This document shows, in pieces, positions 9,258-34,245 of a stretch of DNA of 37,636 bases (the first letter of the stretch is position 1; each line of letters starts with the position of its first letter). A model generated the notes under the pieces. That model had not been told where the DNA came from. It saw only the letters and a program-made list of their open reading frames with translations, and did not search any database. Position numbers and translations under genes: made by a program. The stretch spans positions 1 through 37,636 of the forward strand of contig DASXKV010000045.1 of assembly GCA_036496605.1 (NCBI GenBank), read 5' to 3'. The DNA comes from Gemmatimonadaceae bacterium. Its GTDB lineage: Bacteria > Gemmatimonadota > Gemmatimonadetes > Gemmatimonadales > Gemmatimonadaceae.

Positions 9258-9551
9258 CAACATTCCGGGAACGGTTGACGTCAGCGGAGCCGCTGATACC
9301 ACTGACACGGCCCTGAGACCGCTGACGGGCTCCGTGTACAGAGATACCTCCGCGCCCAAGGACGTTTTGAATTTGTGAATGCGTCGGGAGGCTCCCCTGA
9401 CCGCGGCACACTTCCCGAGGCATTTAAACAAAAAACCCTTTGCTACTTGCCGCATGGAGCCGTCCCTGCTGAGGAGTAAGTCAGTGGTGTCAGCGCCGTG
9501 TCAGTGGTGTCAGTGACCCCCTGACCTCAACTGCATCCCGAAATTCCAGGA
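9258..9551. repeat. Intergenic inverted-repeat element IR-B, copy A
   Basis: The malQ-glgB gap holds one large imperfect inverted repeat. The plus-strand arm at 9481-9551 contains GTCAGTGGTGTCAGCGCCG and CCCGAAATTCCAGGATCAG. The other arm, inverted, occupies about 9258-9310. Between them at 9311-9386 is a core that, reversed, reads CGACGCATTCACAAATTC and onward; it aligns at about 85 of 98 positions (by eye) with 34116-34213. No gene is supported; the open frame 9246-9455 is simply the repeat read through. Confidence 0.8.
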
Positions 9552-16459: not shown

Positions 16460-18064
16460 CTACGCAAGCAGCTTGGCGATGCCGCGCATCGGAATCCACG
16501 CCCAGTCCGGCCGATTGTTCAACTCGTACGCCAATTCGTAAAACGCCTTCTCCGTCTCGAACAACTTGAGCAACGCGCGCGTATGCGCCGGATCCGACGG
16601 GAGAATGCCGCTCGCGTTCGCATCGTCGCTGAGATAGCCGCGCAGGAAGGCGTCGCGCGTGTCGCGCTCCCACCGACCGATGCGCAGCTCGCGCGTGCCG
16701 ACGTCGAGCGCCGTTGCTTCCATGCCCAGCGTCGCCGACGCATACGCGAACGACCGCAACATGCCGGCGACGTCGCGCAACGGACTCGCCTTCTCGCGCC
16801 GCTCCGCGAGCGACCGCGCCGGCTCGCCCTCGAAGTCGATGATCATGAAGTCATCGCGTGCCGTGCGGAGCACTTGGCCGAGATGGTAGTCACCGTGAAC
16901 GCGGATTGCGAGTCCGGCGTCGCCGCGGATGTCGTTTAGTATTTCATCAACGACACCCACATACCGATCCGCGCGCTTCACGAGCGCTTCTGCCTCCGGC
17001 GCTCGCTCCTTCGGCAGCGCACGGGCGCGGAGCTGTCTGTCGAGAAGAGCCAGGCCATCACGAATCCACTGCTTCGCGCGCGCTGCCCACTGCTCGACGA
17101 GCGCGGCGCTCGCGGGCTCCGGCGCGAGATCGGCACCCGTTCCCGTCGCGAGCGCCTCGTGCAGCGCGCGCGTCACGACGCCCAATCGCGCGGCATCGCC
17201 GAGAAACGGGTTCTGGATCTCGCGATCTTTCGGCGACTGGAAGTACGGGCGCGCGCAATCGAGGGTATGGGCCCAGGCGTCGATCGATTTCGCCAGGTAC
17301 TCCTGGAGCATCCCCGCGATCGTCGGAACGCCGTCGTCTTCGAAGCGAATGACGCCGAGGAGAGACGGCGTATGCGGGAACTCCGCGTCGACGGTGAGGA
17401 ACCGCGTGAGCTCGACGTCGGGATTGGCGCCGGTTTCGAGTCTACGAAACAATTTCATAATCGCTCCGGCACCGAGAATCACCGACGTGTTGCTCTGCTC
17501 GACGGAGCCGACGCGGATCTCCGACGTCGGCGGAATGACGAGTGGCACTGCGCTCAGCGACTCGATGATCCACCGCGACGCGCCGGCCCCGAAAGTTCCG
17601 CCGCGGCCGATCGCGTCCGCCAGCGCGCGCAGGAAAGCGCCATCCTCCACCGCGTCGAAGAGCAGCCCTTCTTCCTGCTCGGCGATGACGCGCGCGATAA
17701 TGCTCTTCGGTTTTCGATCGCCGAGCTCCTCGTCGCCCCGGACGCAGAGGGGGAGCTGATAGCTTTTCGCGCCGCCGGTGCTTCCTTCGGTGATCACGTC
17801 CAGTCGCGCGATCGCGAATCGACCACCTTCCCACGGCAGCGCGATCGCGTCCCGTACCCGCGCGGAGGTCGGATTGCCGGCCTTTGCTCCGAACCATCGC
17901 TTGGTCGCGAGAAAGGCAGCGATGTCTTCCGTCGCCAATCGACGCAGCTCGTTAGGTGCGAGCGCATCGGCGAGCGAGCGAACGCGCAGTTCCGGGGCGC
18001 GGGACGCGGAACGCGTGGCGCCAGATTCATCCACCAATCGTCTCTCCTGGCTCGCTTCGCTCAT
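16460..18064 (-). CDS. mak: Maltokinase (stand-alone Mak/Pep2)
   Basis: Phosphorylates maltose with ATP to maltose 1-phosphate, the substrate of GlgE. The 534 residues show the family's cap region with TKRWFGAKAGNP at 54-65, an N-lobe with EQSNTSVILGAGAIMKLFRRLE at about 189-210 (the lysine binds ATP), the Brenner-type catalytic motif RVHGDYHLGQVLRT at 388-401, and the metal-binding IIDFEGEPARSLAERR at 408-423. The C-terminus LNNRPDWAWIPMRGI is typical. In many bacteria this kinase is fused to the C-terminus of TreS; here it is separate, and a MITE-like element lies in the 391-base gap after treS. ATG 18064 follows a pyrimidine-rich leader without a Shine-Dalgarno sequence. The 93 bases before treZ contain no hairpin I can support. 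Confidence 0.93.
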   Translation of the reverse strand: MSEASQERRLVDESGATRSASRAPELRVRSLADALAPNELRRLATEDIAAFLATKRWFGAKAGNPTSARVRDAIALPWEGGRFAIARLDVITEGSTGGAKSYQLPLCVRGDEELGDRKPKSIIARVIAEQEEGLLFDAVEDGAFLRALADAIGRGGTFGAGASRWIIESLSAVPLVIPPTSEIRVGSVEQSNTSVILGAGAIMKLFRRLETGANPDVELTRFLTVDAEFPHTPSLLGVIRFEDDGVPTIAGMLQEYLAKSIDAWAHTLDCARPYFQSPKDREIQNPFLGDAARLGVVTRALHEALATGTGADLAPEPASAALVEQWAARAKQWIRDGLALLDRQLRARALPKERAPEAEALVKRADRYVGVVDEILNDIRGDAGLAIRVHGDYHLGQVLRTARDDFMIIDFEGEPARSLAERREKASPLRDVAGMLRSFAYASATLGMEATALDVGTRELRIGRWERDTRDAFLRGYLSDDANASGILPSDPAHTRALLKLFETEKAFYELAYELNNRPDWAWIPMRGIAKLLA

Positions 18065-18255
18065 CTGAAGAAGGGGATAGTGGCCTGTAATCGAGATGGT
18101 GAGAGCAGCCGGCGAGCATTGCTCTACTCAGGTCGTCAATTCCATCAAAAGAATGATAGAGGCCGCAGGCACCTGGATTCGATTCGCTCCACATTCGCGT
18201 GATTCGCGTCCCCAATACCCTGGACTCCCCAGGCGGTACAGCCGTGCTTACCCTC
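18065..18255. other. Leader between the MITE-like element and mak
   Basis: 191 bases with no gene, part of the 391-base treS-mak gap. It contains short imperfect repeats (ATTCG-rich around 18176-18210) and a small CCTGG/CCAGG hairpin near 18220-18235. No promoter could be assigned with confidence. Confidence 0.35.
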
Positions 18256-18455
18256 GCTAAGTAGGTGGACAAAAGTCTTGCTACAAATTGCTTCGCTGCG
18301 TGTCAGTGCTCTCAGCGGCCTCTCTCTCTTTCACCCCTGCGCACAGCCCGAACTTCCCGGATGATTGCGGATCTCGACTGAAGCGCGTGCTCACAGTGCT
18401 TTTGATCATCGAAACTCCATCAGTTTGTAGCAGAACTTTTGTCTACCTACTTAGC
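18256..18455. mobile_element. 200-bp MITE-like element with 33-bp terminal inverted repeats
   Basis: The left end 18256-18288 starts GCTAAGTAGGTGGACAAAAG. The right end 18423-18455, reversed, starts GCTAAGTAGGTAGACAAAAG. The two 33-base ends match at 29 positions by eye. There is no transposase frame inside. The interior carries GTGTCAGTGCTCTCAGCGG, like IR-B, and CCCGAACTTCCCGGATGAT, like the IR-A end. No clear target duplication is seen outside the ends. It lies between mak and treS, and its right end touches the treS stop codon. Confidence 0.75.
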
Positions 18456-20126
18456 CTAGGCCCTGACCCCTTGCTGGTACTGCTTCGCTTGCTCCGCCGG
18501 CATCAGCCTGAACCAGAGAAAATTGTGCGGACCCATCGTCAAGAGATACGGCAGCTCGCCAATCGGCGGAAAAGTGTTCTTGCTGTACAACTCGAGCGGT
18601 ACCATTCCCAGAAACTCCCGCAGGTCCAGCTCCACGTATTGCGCGAAACGTGAGAGATTATTGACGCAGAGAATCAATTCATCCTTGTAGCGTCGCAAAA
18701 ACACGAGCACGCGCCGATTGTCTGGATGTAGTGGCTCCCACGTCCCGCGACCGAACGCCTTGAACTCGCGACGCACGGCGATCAGCCGCCGCATCCACCG
18801 CAGCAACGACGTCGACGTGCGCTCCTGCGCGGTGACGTTGATCCCTTGATAGCCGTACGGCGGATCGACGATCACCGGACTGTAGAGCGCGGCGTTGTCC
18901 GCGTCGGAGAAGCCCGCGTTGCGATCCGTCGACCACTGCATCGGCGTGCGCACACCATTCCGATCGCCGAGGTAGACGTTGTCGCCCATCCCGATCTCGT
19001 CGCCGTAATAGATGATCGGCGTCCCCGGCATCGACATCAGCAACGCGTTCATGATCTCGATCTGCCGGCGACCGTTGTCCATCAGCGGCGCGAGACGCCG
19101 GCGAATGCCGACGTTGATCCGCATTCGCGACTCACGCGCGTACTCCTTGTACATGTAGTCGCGCTCGTCGTCGGTCACCATCTCGAGCGTGAGCTCGTCG
19201 TGGTTCCGCAGGAAGATCGCCCACTGGCAGTCCTCGGGGATCGGCGGCGTCTGCCGCATGATGTCGACGATCGGCGTGCGGTCCTCTTTGCGCAGCGCCA
19301 TGTACATGCGCGGCATCACCGGGAAATGAAATGCCATGTGGCATTCGTCGGATTTCCCGAAGTACTGCCTAACGTCCGTCGGCCACTGATTTGCCTCGGC
19401 GAGAAAGATCCGATTCTCGTACTCGGCGTCGAGCGTAGCACGCAGATCCCTCAGTACCGCATGAGTCTCTGGTAAATTCTCGCAATTGGTGCCGTCGCGC
19501 TCGATGAGATACGGTATCGCGTCCAGCCGCAGTCCGTCGACGCCCAGCCTGAGCCAGAAGCGCATCACGTTCTTCACCGCCTCGACCACCTCTGGATTAT
19601 CAAAGTTCAAATCGGGCTGGTGGCTGAAAAAGCGGTGCCAGAAGAACTGCTGCGCGACGGGATCCCACGTCCAGTTGGACGTCTCCGTATCGGTGAAGAT
19701 GATGCGCGTACCGGCGTACTTGTTCGGATCGTCGCTCCACACGTACCAGTTGCGCTCGCGCGAATCCTTCGCCGCGCGGCGCGCGCGCTGGAACCATGGA
19801 TGTTGGTCCGACGTGTGATTGATGACGAGCTCCGTGATGACTTTCAGATCGCGTTCGTGCGCGGCGTCGAGGAATGCCTGGAAGTCTTCGACGGTGCCGT
19901 ACGTCGAGTTGATCGCCTCGTACGACGAGATGTCATACCCATCATCGCGCAGCGGTGACGGATAAAAGGGCAGAAGCCAGACGCACGTCGCGCCGAGCTG
20001 CTGGATGTAGTCCAGGCGATCGGTCAATCCACGAAAGTCCCCGTAGCCATCCGCGTTCGCGTCGCGGAACGACTTCACGTGGGTTTGATAGACGATTGCG
20101 TCTTTGTACCAGAGGGGATCGGACAT
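18456..20126 (-). CDS. treS: Trehalose synthase (maltose alpha-D-glucosyltransferase)
   Basis: A GH13_16 enzyme interconverting trehalose and maltose; with Mak and GlgE it drives trehalose into glucan. The 556 residues are colinear with TreS: WYKDAIVYQTHVKSFRDANADG at 6-27, LLPFYPSPLRDDGYDIS at 51-67, ELVINHTSDQHPWFQ at 99-113, nucleophile Asp202 in DGLRLDAIPYLIER, acid/base Glu244 in FLAEANQWP, Asp310 in FLRNHDELTLEM, and ANRNG-like DRNGVRTPMQW further on. No fused kinase domain follows. ATG 20126 has the leader CCCCATCTCTCC with no Shine-Dalgarno sequence. The TAG stop (18458-18456) directly abuts a MITE-like terminal repeat, so the last few residues may be junction-derived. 56 bases separate it from glgE. 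Confidence 0.96.
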   Translation of the reverse strand: MSDPLWYKDAIVYQTHVKSFRDANADGYGDFRGLTDRLDYIQQLGATCVWLLPFYPSPLRDDGYDISSYEAINSTYGTVEDFQAFLDAAHERDLKVITELVINHTSDQHPWFQRARRAAKDSRERNWYVWSDDPNKYAGTRIIFTDTETSNWTWDPVAQQFFWHRFFSHQPDLNFDNPEVVEAVKNVMRFWLRLGVDGLRLDAIPYLIERDGTNCENLPETHAVLRDLRATLDAEYENRIFLAEANQWPTDVRQYFGKSDECHMAFHFPVMPRMYMALRKEDRTPIVDIMRQTPPIPEDCQWAIFLRNHDELTLEMVTDDERDYMYKEYARESRMRINVGIRRRLAPLMDNGRRQIEIMNALLMSMPGTPIIYYGDEIGMGDNVYLGDRNGVRTPMQWSTDRNAGFSDADNAALYSPVIVDPPYGYQGINVTAQERTSTSLLRWMRRLIAVRREFKAFGRGTWEPLHPDNRRVLVFLRRYKDELILCVNNLSRFAQYVELDLREFLGMVPLELYSKNTFPPIGELPYLLTMGPHNFLWFRLMPAEQAKQYQQGVRA

Positions 20127-34072: not shown

Positions 34073-34115
34073 GGGCAATGGGGCACGGGAAGCTTCCAAC
34101 GATCGGCGAAACGTT

Positions 34116-34245
34116 CGACGCATTCACAAATTCAAAACATCACTGGGCGCGGAGCCGTCTCTGCACACGGAGTCCGTCAGCGGTTTCAGCGCCGTGTCAG
34201 CGGTTTCAGCGACCCCCAGGCCCGAAACTCCGTGAAGAACCTGGT
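34116..34245. repeat. Intergenic element IR-B, copy B (single arm)
   Basis: Starts CGACGCATTCACAAATTC and continues through GTCAGCGGTTTCAGCGCCG to CCCGAAACTCCGTGAAGAAC. The first 98 bases match the reverse complement of 9289-9386 at about 85 positions by eye. The second arm seen in copy A is missing. Its end, reversed, matches the CTGGGTTCTTC edge of IR-A. Confidence 0.82.

Follow-up and report, generated by a model that had tools for sequence, protein, structure and literature searches.

What is the short stretch of DNA with matching inverted ends that lies between treS and mak: a mobile element, or a regulatory structure belonging to the genes around it? The stretch analysed here (the window, 37,636 nt) is the whole of contig C45 of a 5.97-Mb, 70-contig Gemmatimonadaceae genome (G000), and it carries, on the minus strand, a cluster encoding GlgE, TreS, Mak and enzymes of the glycogen debranching and branching type. 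We conclude, with a probability of about 0.93, that the feature is a 192-bp MITE of the IS630/Tc1-mariner group, now probably orphaned, and an internal-deletion derivative of a ~420-bp form.

The element and its edges

The inverted arms (18256-18290 and 18421-18455) are 35 nt long and pair at 31 positions (89% complementary), whereas in 20 shuffles the best 35-nt inverted repeat spanning up to 1 kb paired at only 22-27. The near-matching terminal repeats of the first-pass annotation (29 of 33 positions) are therefore real inverted ends. Exact matches to GTAGGTNGACAAAAG occur twice in the whole window, once at each end of the element. The element proper reads AGTAGGTGGACAAAAG...CTTTTGTCTACCTACT, with TA and an outer GC on either side, a context that implies the target GCTAGC. 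Thus the 200-bp element proposed earlier at 18256-18455 exists but is shorter, with the edges given in Table 1, and its description as touching the treS stop was right to within 2 nt, as the treS stop lies two bases past the right TA. It had also been said to hold no gene, and none that is plausible was seen in it: an open reading frame of 121 aa with a TTG start (18288-18653) runs antisense into treS. Short length, terminal inverted repeats and the lack of a transposase gene are all as expected of a MITE.

Table 1. Positions of the element, its parts and neighbouring features in the window
Feature	Position	Strand	Remark
Non-autonomous MITE, very probably of the IS630 family	18260..18451		192 bp; internal-deletion derivative of ~420-bp genomic form
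Left terminal inverted repeat AGTAGGTGGACAAAAGTCTTGCTACAAATT	18260..18289	+	24/30 identity to each Rhodopila IS end; 23/30 to Microvirga right end
Right terminal inverted repeat AGTAGGTAGACAAAAGTTCTGCTACAAACT (minus-strand reading)	18422..18451	-	From inverted-repeat analysis
First flanking TA, presumably half of a TA target duplication	18258..18259		Context GC/TA...TA/GC
Second flanking TA	18452..18453		From edge analysis
Internal junction	18299..18300		~222 bp of the C15 and C4 copies missing here
Family B palindrome remnant GTGTCAGTGCTCTCAGCGGCC	18300..18321		From repeat comparison
treS (alpha-amylase fold and Malt_amylase_C)	18456..20126	-	Stop TAG 18458-18456; 91% identical in G001
mak, maltokinase (Mak_N_cap)	16460..18064	-	From gene and domain calls
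Extra spacer, element to mak	18065..18257		Without counterpart in sister species G001; holds short dispersed repeat
Family B copy, tandem GCTGAAACCRCTGAC units at each end	9289..9513	+	Repeat match
Family B copy, tandem GCTGAAACCRCTGAC units at each end	34086..34215	-	Repeat match

Copies, target site and relatives with a transposase

A search of the genome for further copies of the ends found two of ~420 bp (C15:21583-22003 and C4:15027-15431) and a third of ~365 bp on contig C37, one end of which has decayed. The window copy is 97% identical to the C15 copy over 155 bp and 83% identical to the corresponding part of the C4 copy, and the loci are unrelated. G002, which like G001 is a congener, has two further copies, one of ~320 bp on C178 and one of ~425 bp on C404, as well as two fragments of the ends. 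Such dispersal over unrelated loci in both genomes is typical of a MITE; the low number of copies in G000 (4, from searches that may miss decayed copies) counts against this reading. Within the order, the end sequence was found only in G000, G002 and G029 among 288 genomes, and G029, a family relative, carries a 92-bp element with the same ends and without a transposase.

Loci free of the element were found in relatives, again in keeping with a MITE. In the sister species G001 the TGA of treS is followed by one base and then by the in-frame GTG of mak, with no insert, so that a gap of 1 nt there compares with one of ~390 nt in G000; treS-mak spacing is likewise tight in other relatives. The copy on C37 sits exactly at the ribBA stop, and this site lacks the element in both G001 and G002. 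A single copy conserved at its locus, the finding that would have spoken for a regulatory structure, is excluded by the other copies and by the G001 junction, and the earlier placement of a MITE between the two genes is borne out. Judging from these sequence comparisons, the element entered the DNA 2 nt beyond the stop of treS and so parts treS from mak. It is not the sole separator, because the 193-bp spacer on its mak side is also missing in the sister species. This spacer occurs at full length only in G000, while pieces of it, 81-94% alike, are found in other contigs and in G001; the repeat at ~18175-18237 has such matches in contigs C1, C50 and C58 and at several places in G001.

The target site can be read from the flanks. 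Flanking CTA was seen at 50 of the 53 ends scored in related loci, and joining the flanks gives CTAG at 17 of 18 complete insertions, counted over the Microvirga, Rhodopila and G029 copies with the G000 and G002 rows left out. The IS630-family element ISY100 inserts at and duplicates TA (PMC2170065), and IS630 prefers the TA in CTAG (Tenzen & Ohtsubo 1991, as cited in PMC2170065), a preference with which both the related insertions and the window site agree. Complete copies have TA on both sides. In the same genome, a paralog of the DNA that follows the C4 copy on its right lacks the element and reads GCTAGAGG, with an intact CTAG (GC-TAG-AGG); in this paralog the CTAG takes in the stop codon TAG of a TonB-receptor gene, and where the copy is inserted TAA stands in its place. 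Between species, intergenic DNA is too diverged to yield an empty site resolved to the base with both flanks, and none was obtained; TA duplication at the window site thus rests on family knowledge and half-sites. If a CTAG target and TA duplication hold, the uninterrupted treS-mak site would read ...GGCCTAGGCTAGCGAGG.... Two leads towards an empty site were set aside: a plasmid match for a Microvirga copy proved to be the element's own right flank, and paralogs, within the genome, of the DNA to the right of the C15 copy start at or near the element edge and are uninformative because the DNA upstream is unrelated.

Longer relatives with a transposase were found in other bacteria. When a collection of one genome per species (84,980 species) was scanned with TAAGTAGGTNGNCAAAAGTNNTGC, 37 loci were found, most of them in Microvirga, two in Rhodopila globiformis and two in Gemmatimonadota. 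Paired ends lie 1149 bp apart in Microvirga (L102) and 1239 bp apart in Rhodopila (L129), and each pair encloses two open reading frames that make up a two-frame transposase: one half carries the HTH, the other DDE_3 (E 1e-20), and each of them matches NF033545 IS630. The split of the gene over two frames explains why each half, at 79-88 bits, stays under the cut-off of 100 set for the whole protein. Like the window element, these autonomous elements have terminal AGTAGGTNGNCAAAAGT, flanking TA and a CTAG target, and their CTA...TAG flanks are in line with the CTAG/TA target of IS630. Identity between their ends and those of the window element reaches 24 of 30 bases, as expected if the ends are shared with transposase-bearing IS630 elements; that only 18-24 of 30 are alike counts against the assignment. 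Among the Microvirga loci, L107, L124 and L131 are elements of 2.7-2.9 kb that share these IS630-type ends but exceed the 1149-bp form in length; they are possibly compound or passenger-carrying. Another Microvirga copy (L113 6528) lies just past an apparent tRNA 3' end, within the short palindrome AGAATGCTTAT-GAG-ATAAGCATTCT.

No PF13358 domain was found in G000, G001 or G002; a partner transposase, which is expected of an active MITE and is not part of its definition, was thus not found in these genomes. Across the 288 genomes of the order, a search with the Rhodopila transposase returned a single weak homolog, 34% identical, in one genome. The element is therefore probably an orphan, with a driver that we infer from another phylum. 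Taken together, the shared ends, the CTA...TAG flanks, the copies and the element-free G001 junction lead us to a non-autonomous IS630-family MITE, and the MITE-like reading of the first-pass annotation gains support from the same evidence, each of the three checks suggested there having turned out in its favour.

Published systems offer close parallels. With published insertion sequences of the IS630 family, such as IS630 of Shigella sonnei and ISY100, the window element shares a probable TA target and the CTAG preference known for IS630, but it is only 192 bp long and has no transposase gene. RUP of Streptococcus pneumoniae, a MITE attributed to IS630-Spn1, is the accepted parallel of a MITE mobilised by IS630 and is also small, gene-free and TA-flanked, with IS630-like ends; it differs in having ~108 copies and, within S. 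pneumoniae itself, a partner IS (PMC2229807), as against 4 copies and no partner found here, and we claim no sequence relation to it. The same holds for the Correia/NEMIS elements of Neisseria, which are likewise short TA-flanked MITEs with RNA hairpins. What the present case adds for Gemmatimonadota is a small IS630 MITE family at the level of a genus, linked to autonomous elements of Alphaproteobacteria, together with a clear example of a tightly packed treS-mak pair opened up by a MITE. It leaves the understanding of the GlgE/trehalose pathway and of transposition as it was: the element is real but ordinary.

Other readings and a possible effect on the operon

In addition to its identity as a MITE, and not as an alternative to it, the element may break the coupling of mak to treS, and the hairpin in the RNA may be processed by RNase III or RNase E, with mak lowered or uncoupled. 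The change from 1 nt to ~390 nt between the genes points in this direction, as does the strength of the intercistronic hairpin, since as RNA the 200 nt fold to -77.8 kcal/mol (z -5.9). There are also precedents, reviewed in PMC2229807: RNase III cleavage has been proposed for NEMIS/Correia RNA, and ERIC RNA destabilises upstream transcripts. However, the 193-bp spacer, which is of other origin, also parts the genes, and a scan for promoters and terminators found no such site in the element or the spacer. While an effect on mRNA has been proposed with evidence for Correia/NEMIS, for the window element it is only inferred, and we consider it possible but rather doubtful.

Much less probable is spread of the repeat by another route, of the REP/RAYT type or by recombination, with the TA flanks coincidental. 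That no partner transposase was found in the genome, and that the inner palindromic repeat described below is far more numerous than the TA-flanked form, would suit such a route, but the ends match those of transposase-bearing IS630 elements in the same CTA...TAG context, and we regard it as very unlikely. Least probable of all, and as a primary identity already refuted, is a conserved regulatory RNA structure of the treS-mak operon (an attenuator or riboswitch-like hairpin) in place of a mobile element: the strong fold and the position between two genes that share a pathway and an orientation would fit it, but it is the terminal inverted repeats that dominate the fold, the sequence recurs at unrelated genomic loci, it is absent from the sister species while treS-mak spacing is tight in other relatives, an Rfam search of the element and its relatives gave no match, and neither promoter nor terminator signal was seen in the element.

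The IS630-type ends and target raise one further thought. Both ends begin with AG and the target TA lies within CTAG, so an element that enters a TAG stop automatically rebuilds a stop codon, TAA. This subgroup of IS630 could therefore come to rest where genes end within operons and leave the upstream protein unaltered. We hold this to be unlikely. Two of the 4 G000 copies lie exactly at a stop (at the ends of ribBA on C37 and of the TonB-receptor gene on C4), and the window copy lies 2 nt past a TAG; ribBA, ribH and TonB receptor are names from reading translations, not from a family search. Some Microvirga insertions also fall on TAG stops (long open frames at loci L128, L108 and L134), an observation to which we attach no claim.

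The missing core and the nested family B repeat

In alignment, C45:18258-18299 corresponds to positions 2-43 of the C15 query and 18299-18454 to positions 267-421. The window copy is thus the 420-bp form minus ~222 bp, that is, a deletion derivative. The missing ~222 bp are part of another repeat, family B, which forms an imperfect palindrome ~230 bp long and has paired GGCCGCTGAAACCRCTGAC units at both of its ends. Family B is found at more than 20 places in G000, many of them contig ends, and is commoner by far than the TA-flanked form; it appears to be restricted to the genus, with no match outside it among 60 relatives searched. Several copies have flanking direct repeats of 8-9 bp (computed for L054; by eye for L033, L056 and L060), and repeats of ~8 bp would be as expected if family B were a separate mobile repeat. 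No transposase for it was identified. All complete longer TA-flanked copies contain family B sequence, so family B probably became nested early and the two then spread as a compound, of which the window copy probably lost most of the nested family B later. One mobile repeat is thus seen nested in another, along with a deletion product.

With this in mind, one may propose a history for the MITE. The ancestor would be the ~420-bp form, within which the palindromic family B repeat was nested. Its AGTAGGTNGNCAAAAGT ends would have been recognised by a transposase of the IS630 type that can no longer be detected in the genome and that cut the element out, and insertion would have taken place at the TA inside a CTAG, two bases after the treS stop, presumably duplicating the TA and separating treS from mak. 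The ~222 bp of core would have been lost from the window copy, probably by a hairpin-associated deletion. In consequence, translational coupling of treS and mak may have been lost and a long hairpin introduced into the intercistronic RNA.

A ~115-bp sequence, ATCGCAGCGGACGATCTCGTCCGCC..., joined to a family B unit, forms the end of three contigs (L022 on C18, L029 on C37 and L031 on C22), and represents either part of a longer repeat or a join made in assembly.
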